64,000 nucleotides of DNA from Marinobacter sp. (GTDB taxonomy: Bacteria; Pseudomonadota; Gammaproteobacteria; Pseudomonadales; Oleiphilaceae): contig JAIUMV010000011.1 in the NCBI GenBank assembly GCA_022565395.1, positions 1 through 64,000 on the forward strand, given 5' to 3'. Made by a program: the position numbers and the translations under genes. The notes under the pieces are model-generated. The model did no database searches, was not told the origin of the DNA, and saw nothing but the letters and a program-made list of their open reading frames with translations. Positions 21,690 through 30,083 of this stretch are shown piece after piece; the stretch's first letter is position 1; every line of letters begins with the position of its first letter.

Positions 21690-21706
21690 CTGGCACAGTG
21701 CCTGCA
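21690..21706 (+). promoter_or_regulatory. Sigma-54 (-24/-12) promoter of first nrt operon
   Basis: TGGCAC at 21691-21696 and CTGCA at 21702-21706 place GG and GC exactly 12 bases apart, matching the RpoN consensus. The predicted transcript start is near 21717, nine bases before the first leader hairpin. A TGCACC half-site at 21562-21567, about 150 bases upstream, is a possible NtrC contact. Confidence 0.75.
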
Positions 21707-21725
21707 TTAGCCCTGTTGTGTGCGA

Positions 21726-21815
21726 GCCTGCCGATAGCGGGCCAACTGATGATCAAATGACAATGGCGTCCATGAATCCGAGTGAGTAACTCGGCTTTCC
21801 TGGGCGCTTTTTTTT
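21726..21815 (+). promoter_or_regulatory. NasR-type antitermination leader, first nrt operon
   Basis: Three elements in order. P1-like hairpin: GCCTGC (21726-21731) with GCGGGC (21737-21742). P2 hairpin: GAC, hexaloop AATGGC (21762-21767), GTC; the loop has A at position 1 and G at position 4, as ANTAR proteins require. Terminator: GCGTCCA (21766-21772) with TGGGCGC (21801-21807) enclosing CCGAGT/ACTCGG, then eight T. P2 and the terminator share bases 21766-21770, so they exclude each other. Bound NasR should favour P2 and read-through. Confidence 0.8.
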
Positions 21816-21851
21816 GCCTGTAATTTGCAGGCCCGCAACGGGAGTTGGACG

Positions 21852-23222
21852 ATGAACCAGACCTTTAGCAATCTACTACGTCGACTGGCTGCCGTCGGTT
21901 TGCTGGTGACGGCAACCGCCAGCGCTGCCGATCTTGGCTGGCCAGAAAAGGAAGAGCTTACCTTCGGCTTTATCAAGTTGACGGATATGGCGCCCCTCGC
22001 CATTGCCCAGGAAAAGGGCTTCTTTGAGGATGAGGGGCTGTATGTCAGCCTGGAGGCACAGTCCAACTGGCGGGTGCTGCTGGAGCGCACTATCTCCGGT
22101 GAGCTGGATGGCGCCCATATGCTGGCGGGTCAGCCGTTGGGAGCGACTATTGGCTATGGCACCGAGGCCCATATCATCACCGCGTTCACCATGGACCTGA
22201 ACGGTAACGCCTGCACCGTATCCAATGAGGTGTGGAACCTGATGAAGCCCGGCCTGGAGAAGAAGGATGGTAAGCCGGTGCATCCGATTCCTGCGTCGGC
22301 TCTGTTGCCAGCCATCGAGCACTCCCAGAATCGTGGCCAGCCATTTCGTATGGGTATGGTCTTTCCAGTGTCCACCCACAACTACGAGTTACGCTACTGG
22401 CTTGCGGCAGGCGGTATTCACCCCGGCTTCTATGCGCCTCAACGTGGCGATACCAGTGGCACCCTCAACAGCGATGTGAACATTTCGGTGACGCCGCCAC
22501 CGCAGATGCCGTCCACTCTTGAAGCAGGCACCATCAATGGTTACTGCGTTGGTGAGCCCTGGAACCAGCAGGCCGTGTTTCGCAACATTGGTGTACCGGT
22601 CATCGCTGACGAGGCGATCCGAAACAATGTGGCGGAAAAAGTATTCGGTGTCACCAACGGGTGGGCTGAACGCTACCCCAACACCCACGTACGGGTGGTG
22701 CGGGCGCTGATCCGGGCCGGGCACTGGCTGGACAAGGATAACAACGCCAATCGCCAGGAGGCTGCACGCATTATCGCCCAGTCCCGTTACGTGGGAGCGG
22801 ATTACGAGGTGATCGCCAACAGCATGACCGGGGTGTTTGAGTACGAGAAGGGGGATGTGCGACCGGCGCCGGATTTCAATGTGTTCTTCCGCTACCACGC
22901 GACCTACCCCTTCTACTCTGATGCTGTCTGGTACCTCACCCAGATGCGTCGTTGGGGGCAGATCCCTGAAGCCAAGCCTGACAGCTGGTATCTGGATATG
23001 GCGAAGAAAGTTTTCCGCCCGGATATCTACCGGCAGGCGGCTGAATCCCTGATAGCGGACGGCCTGATGACAGCTGCGGATTTCCCGGACTTTGCCTCTG
23101 AAAGCGGCTTCCGCGCCCCGGATGCTACCCGGTTTATTGATGGTATTACCTTTGATGGCCAGTCACCGAACGCCTATCTCGAGCAGTTCAGTATTGGTCT
23201 GAAAGGCAATGACACTCCCTGA
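21852..23222 (+). CDS. nrtA: Nitrate/nitrite ABC importer binding protein (NrtA-like)
   Basis: A 456-residue periplasmic binding protein of the CmpA/NrtA family, delivering nitrate or nitrite to the permease encoded next. A Sec-type signal peptide ends TASAADLGW. The mature protein begins LTFGFIKLTDMAPLAIAQEKGFF, and GYCVGEPWNQQAVF near residue 235 is typical. ATG 21852 with GGGAG upstream is chosen over an in-frame TTG at 21825. It sits about 35 bases after the leader terminator, so expression depends on antitermination. Bicarbonate or cyanate relatives exist, but the NasR-type leader supports nitrate/nitrite. Confidence 0.88.
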   Translation: MNQTFSNLLRRLAAVGLLVTATASAADLGWPEKEELTFGFIKLTDMAPLAIAQEKGFFEDEGLYVSLEAQSNWRVLLERTISGELDGAHMLAGQPLGATIGYGTEAHIITAFTMDLNGNACTVSNEVWNLMKPGLEKKDGKPVHPIPASALLPAIEHSQNRGQPFRMGMVFPVSTHNYELRYWLAAGGIHPGFYAPQRGDTSGTLNSDVNISVTPPPQMPSTLEAGTINGYCVGEPWNQQAVFRNIGVPVIADEAIRNNVAEKVFGVTNGWAERYPNTHVRVVRALIRAGHWLDKDNNANRQEAARIIAQSRYVGADYEVIANSMTGVFEYEKGDVRPAPDFNVFFRYHATYPFYSDAVWYLTQMRRWGQIPEAKPDSWYLDMAKKVFRPDIYRQAAESLIADGLMTAADFPDFASESGFRAPDATRFIDGITFDGQSPNAYLEQFSIGLKGNDTP

Positions 23223-23242
23223 TTTCCAGAGTGAGAAGGGCT

Positions 23243-24241
23243 ATGAATACCACGACTTTGATTCGCCAGCTGAGCAGTTACCGGCCCTCCCTGGACCGCG
23301 ACAGCCTGCTGAAGTTGTCACGCCGAATACTGGGTGCCCTGGGCGCCCCCCTGTTAGGTCTGGCCATGTTCCTGTTGCTATGGCAGCTGGCAGCGGCCCG
23401 CATTGACACTTCTCTGGGTAGCTTCCCCGGGCCGATGGACGTTGCCGGACAGGCCGCCAACCTCTATCAGGAGCATCGCGCAGAGCGCGAGAGGGCGGTT
23501 GTTTTCATGGAGCGCCAGGAACAGCGGATTCAGGCGCGTCTGGCACAGGACCCGGACTGGGAGCCGGTGCGCCGGGGCTATACCGGTCCCCCCACATTCT
23601 TCGACCAGATTGGTACCAGTCTGCTGACGGTACTGGCGGGTTTTGCCCTGGCTTCTGTCATCGCTATCCCGCTAGGCATTGTGATGGGTCTGAGCCGGTT
23701 TGCCAGCAATGCAATCAACCCGCTGGTGCAGATCTTCAAGCCGGTATCGCCGTTGGCCTGGCTGCCAATAGTGACGCTGGTGGTGGCTGCCGTCTACGTC
23801 AGTGACGACCCCATGTTTTCCCGCTCCTTTGTGGTGTCCATGATCACCGTCATGCTCTGTTGTATCTGGCCGACCCTGATCAACACCTCGGTGGGCGTCA
23901 CCACCGTGAGCCAGGACCTGAACAACGTCAGCCGGGTCTTGCGGTTGGGCTGGTTCACCCATGTCCGCCGCATTGTGTTGCCGTCGGCAATACCGATGAT
24001 GTTCACCGGCCTGCGGGTATCCCTGGGCATTGCCTGGATGGTGTTGATCGCGGCGGAAATGCTGGCTCAGAACCCTGGTCTTGGCAAGTTTGTCTGGGAC
24101 GAGTTCCAGAATGGCAGTTCCGATTCCCTGAGCCGCATCATGGTGGCCGTGCTGGCCATCGGCCTGATCGGATTCCTGCTTGATCGCATCATGCTCATTA
24201 TCCAGCGCCGGGTTGACTGGCAAAAAGGAGCTGTCTCATGA
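23243..24241 (+). CDS. nrtB: Nitrate ABC importer permease (NrtB-like)
   Basis: A 332-residue inner-membrane permease with about six helices. Compared with the second permease in this window it carries a charged ~55-residue insert between the first helix and the BPD_transp core (about residues 65-120). The EAA loop is visible around DLNNVSRVLRLGWFTHVRRIVLPSAIPM. ATG 23243 follows AGAAGGG. It shares ATGA with nrtD. Confidence 0.9.
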   Translation: MNTTTLIRQLSSYRPSLDRDSLLKLSRRILGALGAPLLGLAMFLLLWQLAAARIDTSLGSFPGPMDVAGQAANLYQEHRAERERAVVFMERQEQRIQARLAQDPDWEPVRRGYTGPPTFFDQIGTSLLTVLAGFALASVIAIPLGIVMGLSRFASNAINPLVQIFKPVSPLAWLPIVTLVVAAVYVSDDPMFSRSFVVSMITVMLCCIWPTLINTSVGVTTVSQDLNNVSRVLRLGWFTHVRRIVLPSAIPMMFTGLRVSLGIAWMVLIAAEMLAQNPGLGKFVWDEFQNGSSDSLSRIMVAVLAIGLIGFLLDRIMLIIQRRVDWQKGAVS

Positions 24242-25083
24242 AGCCACTGCTCGATATTTCCAGCGTATCCATGCGGTTTCCCACCCCCAAGGGTGAATTT
24301 GAAGCCCTCAAGGACGTGAACCTGAAAGTTAACCAAGGGGAGTTTGTATCCCTGATTGGTCACTCTGGCTGTGGCAAGTCCACGGTGCTCAATCTGGTGG
24401 GGGGGCTGTACCAGGCCACCACCGGCGGCATTATCCTGGACGGCAAAGAGGTTTCTGAGCCAGGTCCGGAGCGGGCCATTGTGTTCCAGAACCACTCCCT
24501 GCTGCCCTGGTTGTCGGTATGGCAGAACGTGGAGCTGGCGGTCAAGGAAGTGTTCCGGGGCAAAAAGTCCCGGGCGGAAATGCGTGACTGGATCGAGCAC
24601 AACCTGGATCTGGTACATATGCTGCACGCCAAAGACAAGCGTCCGGATGAGATTTCCGGTGGTATGAAGCAGCGTGTGGGTATTGCCCGCGCCCTGGCCA
24701 TGCAGCCTCGATTACTGCTGATGGATGAGCCTTTCGGTGCCCTTGACGCGCTGACCCGTGCTCACCTGCAGGACACCCTGATGGAGATTCAGCGGGAGCT
24801 GAACAACACCGTCATTATGATCACCCATGATGTGGATGAAGCGGTGTTGCTGTCTGATCGTATTGTCATGATGACCAACGGACCGTCCGCCACCATTGGC
24901 GAAATCCTCAATGTTGAGTTGCCGCGCCCTCGTAACCGCATTGCTCTGGCGGATGATCCCACCTACAACCACTACCGCCATGATGTGCTGAGCTTCCTGT
25001 ATGAGAAGCAGCGCAAAGTTGAGCCTTTCTCCCGGCGCCGTAAGGCGAGTGCTCCGTCAGAGACCTGTACCGCACAGGCCTGA
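24238..25083 (+). CDS. nrtD: Nitrate ABC importer ATPase (NrtD-like)
   Basis: A 281-residue ATPase energising the first nitrate importer. Walker A GHSGCGKST, signature [15 protein letters not shown], Walker B LLLMDEPFGALD and switch histidine MITHDVDEAV are intact. The C terminus is short, without the NrtA-like regulatory domain of cyanobacterial NrtC, so allosteric transport inhibition of that kind is absent. A strong terminator follows. Confidence 0.92.
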   Translation: MKPLLDISSVSMRFPTPKGEFEALKDVNLKVNQGEFVSLIGHSGCGKSTVLNLVGGLYQATTGGIILDGKEVSEPGPERAIVFQNHSLLPWLSVWQNVELAVKEVFRGKKSRAEMRDWIEHNLDLVHMLHAKDKRPDEISGGMKQRVGIARALAMQPRLLLMDEPFGALDALTRAHLQDTLMEIQRELNNTVIMITHDVDEAVLLSDRIVMMTNGPSATIGEILNVELPRPRNRIALADDPTYNHYRHDVLSFLYEKQRKVEPFSRRRKASAPSETCTAQA

Positions 25084-25126: not shown

Positions 25127-25279
25127 GTTTTTGAAACTGCGCTGTTTGGGCGCATCGCGGGATCATTACGGTGCCCGCTGCCTGCCACTTGTCGGTGCAT
25201 GTAAAGCAGTAAGTAAATAACGTCATATTTTTCATATGGATAGTCTGGTTGCGCTGCACGCATTTGGTCCGTAGGAGAT

Positions 25280-25295
25280 TGGCATAGGGGATGCA
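25280..25295 (+). promoter_or_regulatory. Sigma-54 (-24/-12) promoter of second nrt operon
   Basis: TGGCAT at 25280-25285 and ATGCA at 25291-25295 again put GG and GC 12 bases apart. The predicted start is near 25306, eight bases before the leader hairpin, the same geometry as in the first operon. An imperfect NtrC-like GCAC-N5-TGGT lies at 25256-25268, close to the promoter. Confidence 0.72.
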
Positions 25296-25313
25296 TGGGT
25301 TTAGTCGTGCAAG

Positions 25314-25407
25314 CCTGCTATGGCAGCAGGTCTTTAGTGTAAAACGAATGACAATGGCGTCCCTGATCCGCGATTTTTTATCGTTCGGTCAGCGGGCGCT
25401 TTTTTTT
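25314..25407 (+). promoter_or_regulatory. NasR-type antitermination leader, second nrt operon
   Basis: Same order as the first leader. P1-like hairpin CCTGCT (25314-25319) with AGCAGG (25325-25330). P2 hairpin GAC, hexaloop AATGGC (25353-25358), GTC. Terminator GCGTCC-CTGA (25357-25366) with TCAG-c-GGGCGC (25389-25399), then eight T. The ATGACAATGGCGTCC core is identical in both leaders, while the terminator arms and loops differ. Shared bases again make P2 and terminator alternatives. Confidence 0.8.
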
Positions 25408-25429: not shown

Positions 25430-26752
25430 ATGGCAGATCAAGACAGCATCAAAGTGAAGTTGGAAGTACCGTCGGCCAGCCGTCGGCGTTTTCTGCAGGG
25501 TTCCGCCGCGCTGGTGGGTGGTGCCGCCATCATGAGCACATTGCCGCAGGTCACCTGGGCATCCAGGGGAACCGGGCTTGAGACTACAGCGGCGAAATTG
25601 GGCTTTATCGCCCTCACCGACGCAGCGCCTCTCTTTGTCGCTCTGGAGAAAGGCTTTTTTGCCAAGCACGGTATGAGCCGGGTTGAGGTGCTCAAGCAGT
25701 CCTCCTGGGGGACTACGCGGGACAACCTGGTGCTGGGCTCTGCCCGCAACGGGATTGATGGCGCCCATATCCTGACCCCCATGCCCTATCTGATGGGTAC
25801 CGGTACGGTGACCAACAATCAGCCGGTGGCCATTAACATTCTGGCGCGCCTCAACGTAGCCGGCCAGTGTATTTCTGTCGGTCGCGAATATCAGGACCTC
25901 AAGGTGGGCGTGGATGCCACCGAGTTTGGCGCCGCCGTCGCCGCCAAGCGTGCAGGCGGAGCCGCCGTCAATGCCGCCATGACCTTTCCGGGGGGCACCC
26001 ACGATCTGTGGATTCGCTACTGGATGGCGGCTGCCGGGATCAACCCGGATCGCGACATTAACACCATTGTTGTGCCGCCGGCGCAGATGGTGGCCAATAT
26101 GCGGGTGGGCAGTATGGATACCTTCTGTGTCTGTGAGCCCTGGAACGAACAGTTAATCAACCAGGGTATCGGCTATACCGCCAACACCACCGGTGAGTTG
26201 TGGCACAACCATCCGGAGAAGGCGTTTGCCCTGCGGCAGGATTATGTGCAGGCCAATCCCAATGCTGCACGGGCGCTGACCATGGCCATTATTGAGGCGC
26301 AGATCTACTGCGAACAGCCGGAAAACATCGAAGAAGTGGCAACCATCTGTGCTCGCCGTCGCTGGATCAACGCACCCTATGCCGACATCATCAACCGTAT
26401 GAAGGGCACTTTTGACTACGGCACTGGCCGTGTGGTGGAAAACCATCCGGACCGTATGCGCTACTGGAATGATCATGCCTCCTACCCCTTCCAGAGTCAT
26501 GATCTGTGGTTCCTGGTGGAAAACATGCGTTGGGGGACCCTGCCCACCAGTCTGGATACCAGCAGCCTGATCAGCCGGGTGAATCGCGAGGATATCTGGC
26601 GCGAGGCGGCGACCGCACTGGGTGTCGACAGCAAGGATATTCCGGACTCCACCTCCCGGGGTAAGGAGACCTTCTTCGACGGCAAGGTGTTTGATCCAGA
26701 AAACCCCATGGCCTACCTGGATAGCCTGGCCATCAAGCGGCCCGTCGCGTAA
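25430..26752 (+). CDS. nrtA: Second NrtA-like binding protein, Tat-exported
   Basis: A 440-residue CmpA/NrtA family binding protein. Its signal peptide has a twin-arginine motif, SRRRFLQGSAALVGGAA, so it should be exported folded, unlike its Sec-type paralogue upstream. The mature start AAKLGFIALTDAAPLFVALEKGFF and the CVCEPWNEQLI segment are conserved. ATG 25430 follows GGAAGGAG and lies 22 bases after the leader T-run. The ligand may differ from that of the first system (nitrate versus nitrite or cyanate); sequence alone does not decide. Confidence 0.87.
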   Translation: MADQDSIKVKLEVPSASRRRFLQGSAALVGGAAIMSTLPQVTWASRGTGLETTAAKLGFIALTDAAPLFVALEKGFFAKHGMSRVEVLKQSSWGTTRDNLVLGSARNGIDGAHILTPMPYLMGTGTVTNNQPVAINILARLNVAGQCISVGREYQDLKVGVDATEFGAAVAAKRAGGAAVNAAMTFPGGTHDLWIRYWMAAAGINPDRDINTIVVPPAQMVANMRVGSMDTFCVCEPWNEQLINQGIGYTANTTGELWHNHPEKAFALRQDYVQANPNAARALTMAIIEAQIYCEQPENIEEVATICARRRWINAPYADIINRMKGTFDYGTGRVVENHPDRMRYWNDHASYPFQSHDLWFLVENMRWGTLPTSLDTSSLISRVNREDIWREAATALGVDSKDIPDSTSRGKETFFDGKVFDPENPMAYLDSLAIKRPVA

Positions 26753-26778: not shown

Positions 26779-27645
26779 ATGAGCTTACAATCTGCGACCT
26801 CCGGTGTGCGCTATTTTCTGGCACGAAAAATGGACCGTGATGCCCACGACCGCGGCAGTCGGGTCATTCAATACCTGGTCTTCAATGTCACGCCGCCAGT
26901 GCTGGTGACGGCGTTGTTACTGGGGCTCTGGGAGCTGCTTTGCTCCGGCGCAGGTGCCGTATTGCCACCACCCTCCCAAGTGGTGTCGGATACCTGGGAG
27001 CTGATCACCAATCCTTTCTATGACCATGGCGGTAACGATGTGGGCATGGCCTGGCAGATCCTCGCCAGTCTGGAACGGGTGGCCTATGGCTATACCCTGG
27101 CGGTGATTGGCGGGGTGGCGCTGGGTGTGCTGGTGGGGCAGTCCACCTGGGCCATGCGTGGCCTTGACCCTCTGTTCCAGGTCTTGCGCACGGTGCCTCC
27201 GCTGGCCTGGCTGCCCATTTCCCTGGCCGGGTTTCAGGACAGTCACCCGTCCGCCATTTTCGTGATTTTTATCACGGCTATCTGGCCCATCATCATCAAT
27301 ACGTCGGTAGGTATCCGCAACATTCCGGAGGACTATCGCAATGTCGCCAAGGTGCTGCGCCTGAACGGCTTTGAGTATTTCCACCGCATCATGCTGCCGG
27401 CCGCCGCGCCCTACATTTTTACCGGTTTGCGTATTGGCGTTGGCCTGTCCTGGCTGGCCATTGTGGCGGCGGAAATGCTGATTGGTGGTGTGGGCATTGG
27501 CTTCTTCATCTGGGATGCGTGGAATGCCTCTCTCATCAGCGACATTATTCTCGCACTCGTTTATGTCGGTATTGTCGGCTTCATTCTCGACCGGTTGGTA
27601 GCCTTCATTGGCGTTCGTGTCACCCGTGGCACTGCAGAGGCGTAA
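26779..27645 (+). CDS. nrtB: Second nitrate-type ABC permease
   Basis: A 288-residue inner-membrane permease of the NrtB/SsuC type, with about six helices and the EAA loop near NIPEDYRNVAKVLRLNGFEYF. It lacks the charged insert of the first permease. It lies 26 bases after the binding protein and 15 bases before the ATPase gene, in one operon. Confidence 0.9.
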   Translation: MSLQSATSGVRYFLARKMDRDAHDRGSRVIQYLVFNVTPPVLVTALLLGLWELLCSGAGAVLPPPSQVVSDTWELITNPFYDHGGNDVGMAWQILASLERVAYGYTLAVIGGVALGVLVGQSTWAMRGLDPLFQVLRTVPPLAWLPISLAGFQDSHPSAIFVIFITAIWPIIINTSVGIRNIPEDYRNVAKVLRLNGFEYFHRIMLPAAAPYIFTGLRIGVGLSWLAIVAAEMLIGGVGIGFFIWDAWNASLISDIILALVYVGIVGFILDRLVAFIGVRVTRGTAEA

Positions 27646-27660
27646 GCCAGGAGCAAGATC

Positions 27661-28524
27661 ATGAGCAAGCATTATTTGACCATTGAAAAAGTAGACAAGA
27701 CATTCAGCAAGGGCGGTGTTTCCAGCCGGGTACTGGACAACATCAACCTACAGGTGGATCGCGGCGAGTACATTTCCATCATCGGCCACTCGGGCTGCGG
27801 CAAGTCCACCGTGCTCAATATCGTGGCGGGCCTTCTGGATGCCAGTTCAGGCGGTGTCATCCTCGACGGCAAGGAGGTCACCACCCCCGGCCCGGATCGC
27901 GCCATGGTGTTCCAGAACCACTCCTTACTGCCCTGGCTGACGGTCTATGAGAACGTTGCCCTGGCAGTGGACAAGACCTTTCGGGGCAGTAAAACGGCCA
28001 AGGAACGCAAGGAGTGGGCGCTGCACAACCTGGCACTGGTGAGCATGTCCCATGCACTGGATAAGCGGCCGTCGGAGATTTCCGGTGGTATGAAACAGCG
28101 GGTGGGCATCGCCCGGGCACTGGCCATGGAGCCCAAGGTGTTGCTGCTGGATGAGCCCTTCGGCGCCCTTGACGCCTTGACTCGCGCCCATCTGCAGGAT
28201 GAGGTGATGCGTATTCAGGCCGAGTTGCACAACACTGTCATGATGATTACCCACGATGTGGATGAAGCGGTACTGCTGTCAGACCGCATCGTTATGATGA
28301 CCAACGGCCCCTCCGCCACCATCGGGGAAATTCTCACCATCGACCTGCCCCGGCCACGAGACCGTATTGCCCTGGCGGACGACCCCAAGTACAACCACTA
28401 CCGCCAGGAAGTGCTGCGCTTCCTGTATGAAAAACAGCGCAAGGTGGAGCCCATTGACAGCCGTCGCAAGAGTTCCAGCAAGGAGCAGGAGAAGGATGCT
28501 GAAGCCTGCGCAGCCCAGGCTTAG
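27661..28524 (+). CDS. nrtD: Second nitrate-type ABC ATPase
   Basis: A 287-residue ATPase very similar to the first NrtD. Walker A GHSGCGKST, signature [15 protein letters not shown], Walker B LLLDEPFGALD and MITHDVDEAVLL are all intact, and the C-terminal VEPIDSRRKSS region has no regulatory domain. It ends just before a bidirectional terminator shared with nasR. Confidence 0.92.
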   Translation: MSKHYLTIEKVDKTFSKGGVSSRVLDNINLQVDRGEYISIIGHSGCGKSTVLNIVAGLLDASSGGVILDGKEVTTPGPDRAMVFQNHSLLPWLTVYENVALAVDKTFRGSKTAKERKEWALHNLALVSMSHALDKRPSEISGGMKQRVGIARALAMEPKVLLLDEPFGALDALTRAHLQDEVMRIQAELHNTVMMITHDVDEAVLLSDRIVMMTNGPSATIGEILTIDLPRPRDRIALADDPKYNHYRQEVLRFLYEKQRKVEPIDSRRKSSSKEQEKDAEACAAQA

Positions 28525-28540: not shown

Positions 28541-28573
28541 AAAAAAAACCGGGCTATCAAGCCCGGTTTTTTT
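28541..28573. terminator. Bidirectional terminator nrtD2/nasR
   Basis: CCGGGCT pairs with AGCCCGG around ATCA, with eight A before and seven T after, so it works for both the nrt operon and the convergent nasR gene. Confidence 0.93.
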
Positions 28574-28574
28574 G

Positions 28575-29861
28575 TTATTGCCACATCTCCGCCATGGAGA
28601 TCACCGCCTTGGCCACCTCGCCCAGCCGCTTGCCTTCGTTCATGGCAATGCGGGTGAGCAGGCGGTGGGCCTCGTCTTCACTCATCTGTTTCTGTTTCAT
28701 CAACAAGGCCTTGGCTCGTCCCAGCAGTTTGCGCTCTTCCAGCGCCTGCCGGGCTTCCGCCAGCTCGTCGTTCATTTGCTGCAGTCGCGCTGACTGGTTT
28801 TGCACCAGTTCCAGTACCGAGCGTCCCAGGCGTGGTGACAGCCCCTCATTGGCCAGGCTGGCAATTTCGTATTCACCGGCCAGTTCATCCTTGCTGAGCA
28901 TTACCACGAAAGCATCATGGGGTTCGTGCTTTTGCAGGTCACGGATCAGCACCTCGTGCTGGCTCAGGGCCTGGCGCGCTTCGGCAAACTTGATGGCACA
29001 GAGGTGGTGGAGGTGGGCTTCCAGCGCTTCTTCCACCACCTTCAGGTCGTCGATGCGTGACGACATCAGCTCAAACCACTGGCAGGTGTGCTCATCCCGA
29101 ATCAGTGCCTGATTGCTGTTGGAGCGGGCGACACCCCGCAAATAGCGAATAGGCTCCTGATAGGGTTTTTCCAGACAACGCTGGTAAAGCGCCAGTGACT
29201 GCTCATCGGCAAACTCGCAAAACAGTTCGAAGCAACGCTCCTGTGCTTCAAGCAGGTGCGTCATGCGCTCTTGTAGTGCGCGGGCAAACTGTCGGCCGGC
29301 AAAACCCACGGAGCCCGCGGCCCGCTCCTGGCCCGCCAGTTCCTTGCCATGCATGAGGTTGAACATGGCGACCAGTACCTTGGCAATGCCGGGGTCTGCG
29401 GCGGTATCGGCGGCCTCGAACACCACGGACAGCAGCACACGAATCAGTTCGATATAGATGCGAGTTGCAGCGTCTGCACTGATCTCCTGGCGCAGTACCT
29501 GGGCGCGCAGTGTCTCAATGCCGGACAGGCCGTGCAGGGCCGAGGCGATGCGCGACAGCAGGCGACTGCTGCCGTGGTCGCTGCCCAAGGCTTCCCGGGC
29601 CTGCGCCAGAGCGGCATAGAAGCCGTTGAGCTGGTCATCGGAGGCCTGACTGATGCCTTCCAGCTCATCACTGAAACGTTGCCCGCCGGAGCCAAGAAAC
29701 AGGTTGGACGCACCCCGTTCCCGCTGCAGCGCGTGTATCAGGTTACTGATGGCGACCACCAGTTGGCCCAGTTTCAGGAAACTGGTGAGATCCTGTATCT
29801 CGCATTGCTTGGATGCGATCAGAAAATCGGTGGCGTCGGGCTTGATAGCTGAAATAGCCAT
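28575..29861 (-). CDS. nasR: Nitrate-sensing antiterminator NasR (NIT-ANTAR)
   Basis: A 428-residue cytoplasmic regulator. Residues ~30-290 form the all-helical NIT domain that binds nitrate or nitrite, beginning ISNLIHALQRERGASNLFLG. The last ~55 residues are an ANTAR RNA-binding domain, with the RKLLGRAKALLMKQKQMSED helix and a C-terminal helix ending EVAKAVI. In Klebsiella, NasR stops termination in the nasF leader when nitrate is present. The two neighbouring nrt leaders carry matching hexaloop hairpins and are its obvious targets. ATG 29861 (MAISAIKPD) is preferred to the upstream 29885 codon. Confidence 0.93.
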   Translation of the reverse strand: MAISAIKPDATDFLIASKQCEIQDLTSFLKLGQLVVAISNLIHALQRERGASNLFLGSGGQRFSDELEGISQASDDQLNGFYAALAQAREALGSDHGSSRLLSRIASALHGLSGIETLRAQVLRQEISADAATRIYIELIRVLLSVVFEAADTAADPGIAKVLVAMFNLMHGKELAGQERAAGSVGFAGRQFARALQERMTHLLEAQERCFELFCEFADEQSLALYQRCLEKPYQEPIRYLRGVARSNSNQALIRDEHTCQWFELMSSRIDDLKVVEEALEAHLHHLCAIKFAEARQALSQHEVLIRDLQKHEPHDAFVVMLSKDELAGEYEIASLANEGLSPRLGRSVLELVQNQSARLQQMNDELAEARQALEERKLLGRAKALLMKQKQMSEDEAHRLLTRIAMNEGKRLGEVAKAVISMAEMWQ

Positions 29862-30083
29862 TGTTCTACCTACAGTATGGGGCATTCATGATACGTATTT
29901 AATCGCAATTATCAGGCCATGAGGCCGAAAAACCTTACTTTCCTTCGGTGTTAATGTGTTGCGCGCTGTGGATAATAGACCGGCGTTGTATGGCGTGAGT
30001 GTTACTTCGAACTGCGTCCTACAGGTCCATTGCTGCTCGATCAGCGTAACATCGCGTAGCGCTGCCAAACCTGGAGACAGAAT

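Follow-up and report, generated by a model that had tools for sequence, protein, structure and literature searches.

In Marinobacter sp. (GCA_022565395.1), the leader that stands before an ABC importer of the NrtA/NMT1_2 family (leader 1 and importer 1) is real and would most likely work like the known NasR leaders. We regard it, with considerable confidence, as a nitrogen- and nitrate-gated transcription attenuator of a NasR/ANTAR-like type. Its promoter element, P2 hairpin and terminator, together with a NasR gene and a pattern recurring at four genome sites, are apparent from the sequence and from comparison with other genomes (Table 1). A sequence-only reading of the same DNA had already proposed a NasR/ANTAR attenuator behind a sigma-54 promoter, and this proposal gains support from the presence of NasR, rpoN and ntrC in the genome and from the recurrence of P2, terminator and promoter element beside the NasR genes of relatives. 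The complete geometry claimed in that reading holds for the promoter, P2 and terminator, but is overstated because the P1 hairpin of leader 1 has a pentaloop, CGAUA, without A1/G4. Since the P1 hexaloop is a defining feature of the dual-hexaloop motif and leader 1 was found to lack it, we file this leader as a variant that would work like dual-hexaloop ANTAR leaders, not as a strict member. The window, meaning the whole stretch of DNA analyzed, has 64,000 nucleotides (contig JAIUMV010000011.1, positions 1 to 64,000).

Table 1. Features of the putative NasR regulon, in window positions unless marked L123 (same genome, contig C23).
Feature	Position	Strand	Basis
Sigma-54-type -24/-12 element TGGCACAGTGCCTGCA, leader 1	21691-21706	+	10/12 consensus letters; GG/GC spacing read directly
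Predicted transcription start, leader 1	~21717	+	inferred, 12 bases past the -12 GC
P1-position hairpin GCCUGC[CGAUA]GCGGGC, non-canonical pentaloop, leader 1	21726-21742	+	fold, -9.9 kcal/mol
P2 antiterminator hairpin GAC[AAUGGC]GUC, A1/G4 hexaloop, leader 1	21759-21770	+	sequence; hexaloop type common to NasR-side leaders of relatives
Intrinsic terminator overlapping the 3' half of P2, 8 U, leader 1	21765-21815	+	fold, z -4.86
Periplasmic binding protein, importer 1 (NrtA/NMT1_2 family, subfamily distinct from NrtA)	21852-23222	+	PF13379, E 4.9e-86
ABC permease, importer 1	23231-24241	+	NtrB model 168.9 bits, under cut-off 209.05; PF00528
ABC ATPase, importer 1	24238-25083	+	NtrCD model 351.8 bits, over cut-off
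NtrC-like site TGCCACTTGTCGGTGCA upstream of leader 2	25183-25199	+	10/12 letters of the consensus assumed
Sigma-54-type element TGGCATAGGGGATGCA, leader 2	25280-25295	+	9/12; matched by the combined pattern
P1-position hairpin, CCUGC with U:A, loop AUGGC, leader 2	25314-25330	+	sequence, fold, scan
P2 hairpin GAC[AAUGGC]GUC, leader 2	25350-25361	+	identity with leader 1
Terminator, leader 2	25356-25407	+	fold, z -2.92, 1/200 shuffles as stable
NrtA-type binding protein, importer 2	25430-26752	+	phmmer against NrtA 2g29, E 2.8e-163
Permease, importer 2	26779-27645	+	NtrB model 323.3 bits, over cut-off
ATPase, importer 2	27661-28524	+	NtrCD model 350.3 bits, over cut-off
NasR, nitrate-sensing NIT and RNA-binding ANTAR domains	28575-29885	-	PF08376 and PF03861 over cut-off
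Sigma-54/hexaloop/terminator leader before nirB	L123:11299-11435	-	sequence, combined pattern
Sigma-54/hexaloop/terminator leader before the 412-aa NirB-like flavoprotein gene	L123:12831-12958	-	sequence, combined pattern

Two leaders and the importers behind them

The promoter element of leader 1 has its GG at 21692-21693 and its GC at 21704-21705, placing them 12 bases apart from start to start as previously read, which is the fixed spacing of sigma-54 elements; the scoring used a TGGCAC-N5-TTGCW-like sequence, which we take to be the sigma-54 consensus. The 6-bp hairpin found nine bases after the predicted start also agrees with the earlier description. In stability, the P1 stretch as a whole does not stand out from its shuffles (z -0.13; 84 of 200 match it). 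P2 carries the hexaloop announced for it, AAUGGC with A1 and G4 and a C:G closing pair (C-AAUGGC-G, 21761-21768), on a stem of three pairs only, followed by a U:C mismatch. The terminator stem runs from 21765 to 21808 and the T-run from 21808 to 21815 (-25.4 kcal/mol; none of 200 shuffles was as stable). The 5' arm of the stem (21765-21772) covers the 3' half of the P2 loop, three bases, and the three bases that form the 3' strand of the P2 stem: the overlap with P2 stands as proposed, but not the five shared bases counted from 21766. The entire leader folds better than shuffles (z -3.54), and the first importer gene begins after it with an ATG at 21852. Upstream, the best NtrC-like site has 8 of the 12 letters of what we presume to be the NtrC consensus, a score at chance level that most control stretches reach.

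Leader 2 (25280-25407) precedes importer 2 and is a near-twin of leader 1 around P2, the two being identical over 15 bases there and at the GGGCGCTTTTTTTT end, and the NtrC-like site ahead of leader 2 is the better one. By sequence, importer 2 is a standard nitrate ABC importer, having the characteristics that define NrtABC/NasFED systems, and importer 1 is a sister type of it. Among solved structures, the binding protein of importer 1 matches best the C-terminal domains of NrtC/CmpC, with NrtA (2g29) next, and it shares 31% identity with its importer 2 counterpart. All importer 1 reading frames are open. Its substrate is likely nitrate or nitrite, since the alignment with these matches finds a W, an H and a K kept at the positions that we take to be the oxyanion contacts of NrtA. 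Relatives from the importer 1 subfamily with their own P2-plus-terminator leader were found in L035, L037, L042-L044, L051, L070 and L080.

We suggest the following mechanism. Under nitrogen limitation, NtrC~P and the sigma-54 polymerase would initiate at about 21717. Without nitrate, the terminator (21765-21815) would fold by default, with transcription ending before the importer 1 genes. When nitrate or nitrite is present, NasR, encoded about 6.8 kb downstream of leader 1 (close to the 7 kb first estimated), would bind the P2 hexaloop AAUGGC and hold the 3' half of P2, the terminator stem would thereby be shortened, and polymerase would continue into the importer 1 operon. Promoter use, NasR binding and nitrate-dependent read-through at leader 1 are what we infer, the antitermination step by analogy with Klebsiella and Enterococcus. 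NasR would also act at three other leaders, those of importer 2 (25280), of a NirB-like flavoprotein gene and of nirB, the last two on contig C23.

The P1 hairpin and the RNA-binding residues of NasR

In K. oxytoca, the nasF leader was reported to require its P1 stem as well as A1 and G4 of that hairpin (PMC3369936), and SELEX with NasR recovered two C:G-closed A1/G4 hexaloops (PMC7496416). From the EutV structure it was proposed that P1 serves to recruit the protein and that the minimal target is a single hexaloop (PMC8934654). In leader 1, there is a hairpin at the usual spacing, with a pentaloop where the A1/G4 hexaloop is expected. As a comparison set, we scanned species-representative genomes with a three-sequence NasR profile and kept the best 80 of 473 confirmed stretches. 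In these 80 loci, a strict P1 (A1/G4 hexaloop, C:G-closed) occurs in 57 of the 65 leaders of relatives and in neither of the window leaders; a few of the 57 hits may be chance (L080 at 58 nt; one of two in L035). The strict P1 lies 27-33 nt before P2 in 32 of the 57 and at 62 nt in 9 (best 80 of 473 loci); the P1 closing C of leader 1 is 30 nt before that of P2. A wider scan, whose candidates certainly include spurious ones, gave an ANNGNN hexaloop hairpin between the start and P2 in 72 of 87 candidate leaders versus 12% of shuffled ones. The importer 1 and nirB leaders are among the 15 candidates of that scan without it, and the importer 2 leader was counted only through a chance-looking match 17 bases from P2.

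Read by eye, the loops at the P1 position are CGAUA in the importer 1 leader, AUGGC (U:A) in importer 2, ACGGAU (U:A) in the flavoprotein gene and AAGGAGC (C:G) in nirB, with lengths of five bases in both importers, six in the NirB-like gene and seven in nirB. With positions numbered from the 5' end of the loop, three of these four have A1 and G4, the exception being the importer 1 leader. The P1-position hairpin of the flavoprotein leader is absent from its lowest-energy fold.

A covariance model containing both hairpins (R1) was built from 22 relatives. In them the P1 and P2 stems covary, with paired cells, both-side-changed cells and the covariation score each reached in 0 of 500 shuffles, which ignore relatedness; the numbers of pairs changed on both sides (306 of 500 shuffles) and of pair types (72 of 500) were not unusual. 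A search of this kind with the dual-hairpin motif had been put forward as a check of the sequence-only reading, and it did not recover leader 1 significantly: in 103 kb the hit scored 13.4 bits and ranked 3 of 19 (E 0.16), and genome-wide, where 150 of 2672 first-look candidates were scored, it ranked 12 of 14 (E 5.9). This result speaks against a complete geometry. In the importer 2 leader, R1 found P2 only (10.8 bits). An Rfam scan of the whole window gave no match but a cobalamin riboswitch (RF00174, 35851-36068 on the forward strand, 109.9 bits).

The NasR protein is a homologue of K. oxytoca NasR (4akk, E 7.4e-56). We aligned it on that protein, with the RNA-binding positions taken from PMC7496416 and PMC8934654, and found R340, K341, K347, E358 and M370 kept and R in place of K345, a replacement that behaved as wild type in K. 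oxytoca NasR (PMC7496416). At the position of R366 there is a T that no relative among the 81 aligned shares (76 have R, 4 have L and one has Q), and at that of N373 a G (N in 49, S in 16 and G in 13 of the 81). R366A and N373A each abolished RNA binding in K. oxytoca NasR. In our own alignment, the R366 position corresponds to Arg168 of EutV, which touches an RNA ribose (PMC8934654). A change at this position need not be fatal, since four relatives with L at 366 (L064, L067, L068 and L077, all Serratia) have canonical leaders with canonical P1 loops; R366T leaves some doubt about how well NasR binds RNA here. We weighed a link between R366T and the odd P1 and gave it up, these Serratia being canonical and the relatives with an odd-looking P1 (L060, L083 and L103, plus L080 by eye) all keeping R366. 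W362H, considered as another unusual change, was dropped too, H being present in 39 of the 81 relatives.

Between the convergent genes of NasR and the importer 2 ATPase there is a 14-pair hairpin with A- and T-tracts (28542-28573), possibly a two-way terminator. In viral contigs, 80 stretches matched a NasR peptide pattern and none was confirmed as a relative.

Leader 1 could also be a decayed or NasR-independent copy, in which a sigma-54 promoter and a constitutive terminator are left, P1 is lost, NasR no longer antiterminates and importer 1 depends on leaky read-through alone. This would fit the P1 loop devoid of A1/G4, the 3-bp stem of P2, the ordinary stability of the P1 stretch, the E value of 5.9 for the two-hairpin model in the genome and the two changed RNA-binding positions of NasR. 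However, P2 and its flanks are letter-identical to those of leader 2 over 15 bases, the promoter element, P2 and terminator are intact, and importer 1 has open frames. Moreover, the importer-1-type leader of a genome from the same family (L122) also has a non-hexaloop P1, yet its promoter element, P2 and terminator are kept. We consider decay rather unlikely.

If leader 1 is a NasR-dependent attenuator as we suggest, it may be, as a tentative extension that we would not favor at present, that NasR in this lineage antiterminates with a non-hexaloop P1. In the importer 1 leader, P2 alone would then be the sequence-specific target, because neither A1 nor G4 is left in P1, making it a natural single-hexaloop ANTAR site of the sort put forward on the basis of the EutV structure. 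In that case the strength of P1 and P2 could grade the four operons. Natural leaders with an odd P1 allow a direct test between a required P1 hexaloop, as the nasF and eut mutants suggest, and the sufficiency of one hexaloop, as the EutV structure paper has it.

Recurrence within the genome and beside NasR genes

The combined pattern consisted of TGGCAY-N7-GC, CANNGNNG 45-75 bases further and six T another 20-50 bases further. It matches four distinct sites in the genome, with 0 for the reversed control, and they lie before importer 1, importer 2, the NirB-like flavoprotein gene and nirB. With the NirB model (cut-off 578.35), the 412-aa flavoprotein has 350.6 bits, under the cut-off, and the nirB product of contig C23 has 1088.1 bits, over it. 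The gene divergent from the flavoprotein gene, encoding a molybdopterin enzyme, is not among the four matches of the combined pattern; the enzyme resembles assimilatory nitrate reductase, below the cut-offs of those models. A strict pattern, ACAAYGGCGT...GCGYTTTTT, found the two importer leaders only, missing those of contig C23 because their loops are AUUGUU and AUUGGC. Both the importer and the reductase sides appear to be led by such leaders, which points to a four-leader NasR regulon in which a single sensor would control both the import of nitrate and the reduction of nitrite. The sequence-only reading had contrasted an importer with a reductase operon, a distinction that fails because the four sites cover both importers, the NirB-like gene and nirB. 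The Klebsiella nasFEDCBA operon itself starts with transporter genes, and the importers of relatives are also led, as follows.

Within the best 80 of 473 loci, 73 binding-protein genes were found in 70 loci, and 65 of them are preceded by a P2-like hairpin that overlaps a terminator (67 of 75 once the two genes of the window are added), a count in which the L066 "P2" element, probably a P1, was kept as a flaw. The comparison of leaders among relatives suggested in the sequence-only reading thus came out in its favor, the P2 A1/G4 hexaloop and terminator being common beside NasR. The 8 of 75 binding-protein genes without a leader in these best 80 of 473 loci are those of L034, L047, L048, L055, L072, L090 and L100 and the second copy of L060; the L034 and L047 genes are within 90 bases of a contig end, and L048, L055, L090 and L100 have a leader-like element elsewhere in the locus. 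A sigma-54-like element scoring at least 9/12 stands 30-140 bases before P2 in 62 of the 65 leaders of relatives, or 64 of 67 with both window leaders, versus 3.9% of 1340 controls, which were random stretches of the same loci (best 80 of 473). Upstream NtrC-like sites scoring at least 10/12 accompany 26 of the 67 leaders (65 from relatives and two from the window) versus 3.5% of the 1340 controls (same best 80 of 473 loci). In the Alcanivorax loci L035 and L037, both importer types are present and divergent, each with its own leader, and a leader precedes nirB in L036, L043, L046, L048 and L049.

The chance expectation for the combined pattern is 0.4 per genome in first-order random sequence of the window composition, a rough value from one hit in 19.2 Mb. 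Among 293 genomes of the order, 163 contain this same loose pattern at least once and its reversed control matches in about 56, so it is not specific by itself; some of these order-wide matches are visibly canonical leaders and others are not. A census of the 293 genomes with the loose pattern was dropped as too noisy. Since the loose pattern is commoner in real genomes than in random sequence, the weight of the four sites is in their location and not in their number alone. This frequency, the abundance of terminator-like sites and the chance level of the GG/GC element alone in the window (12 found versus 14.5 expected) would also fit an ordinary intrinsic terminator standing by chance behind such an element, with no regulation. 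But all four genome sites precede importer, NirB-like or nirB genes, and the arrangement recurs beside NasR in 65 of 73 cases (best 80 of 473 loci), and we hold a chance terminator to be very improbable.

NasR is the only ANTAR match in the 3.9-Mb assembly, rated 99% complete, and leader 1 thus shares its genome with a NIT-ANTAR protein. It is hardly credible that leader 1 is worked by a two-component ANTAR protein of the NasT type, which acts in nitrate regulation and antitermination in other bacteria (PMC3795266, PMC6759348), because another ANTAR gene would need to sit in a contig gap.

Contig C23 also contains a canonical hexaloop hairpin, GUCC[AAUGGC]GGAC (L123:16689-16722, forward strand), some 65 bases ahead of a gene that gave an Alginate_exp porin match of 44.2 bits. 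It has 14.2 bits with model R1 (E 0.11), and no T-run was seen. It is possibly a lone ANTAR site, or chance.

Comparison with known systems

A study of 2012 predicted ANTAR regulons in which several leaders govern nitrogen genes, nitrate/nitrite transporters and nitrite reductase among them (PMC3369931), so the leader mechanism is already known. In Pseudomonas stutzeri, nasF and nasB are NtrC-dependent (PMC8443478). We noticed no such leaders for this lineage in the open-licence literature, in searches that were not organism-directed.

The K. oxytoca nasF/NasR system has, as here, a NIT-ANTAR protein, a P1-position hairpin and a P2 with an A1/G4 hexaloop overlapping an intrinsic terminator, and in Klebsiella, too, the leader precedes nitrate transporter genes. 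Unlike nasF, there are here four leaders on two contigs, with importer and reductase-side genes led separately, and the P1 loop of leader 1 has five bases and no A1/G4. With the eut/EutV system of Enterococcus faecalis, the putative regulon would share an ANTAR protein that stabilizes P2 against the terminator and several leaders for one protein; in contrast, EutV is a phosphorylated response regulator and both eut loops are hexaloops. A third arrangement to compare is that of the Alcanivorax and Pseudohongiella loci (L035, L037, L043 and L049), where NasR is also found beside NrtA-family importers, with nirB too in L043 and L049, and every importer has its own sigma-54 element, P2 and terminator. 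They differ in that their importers, or importer and nirB, are divergent, whereas those of Marinobacter sp. are in tandem, and in P1, which has the A1/G4 hexaloop in all of their leaders but the importer-1-type one of L037.
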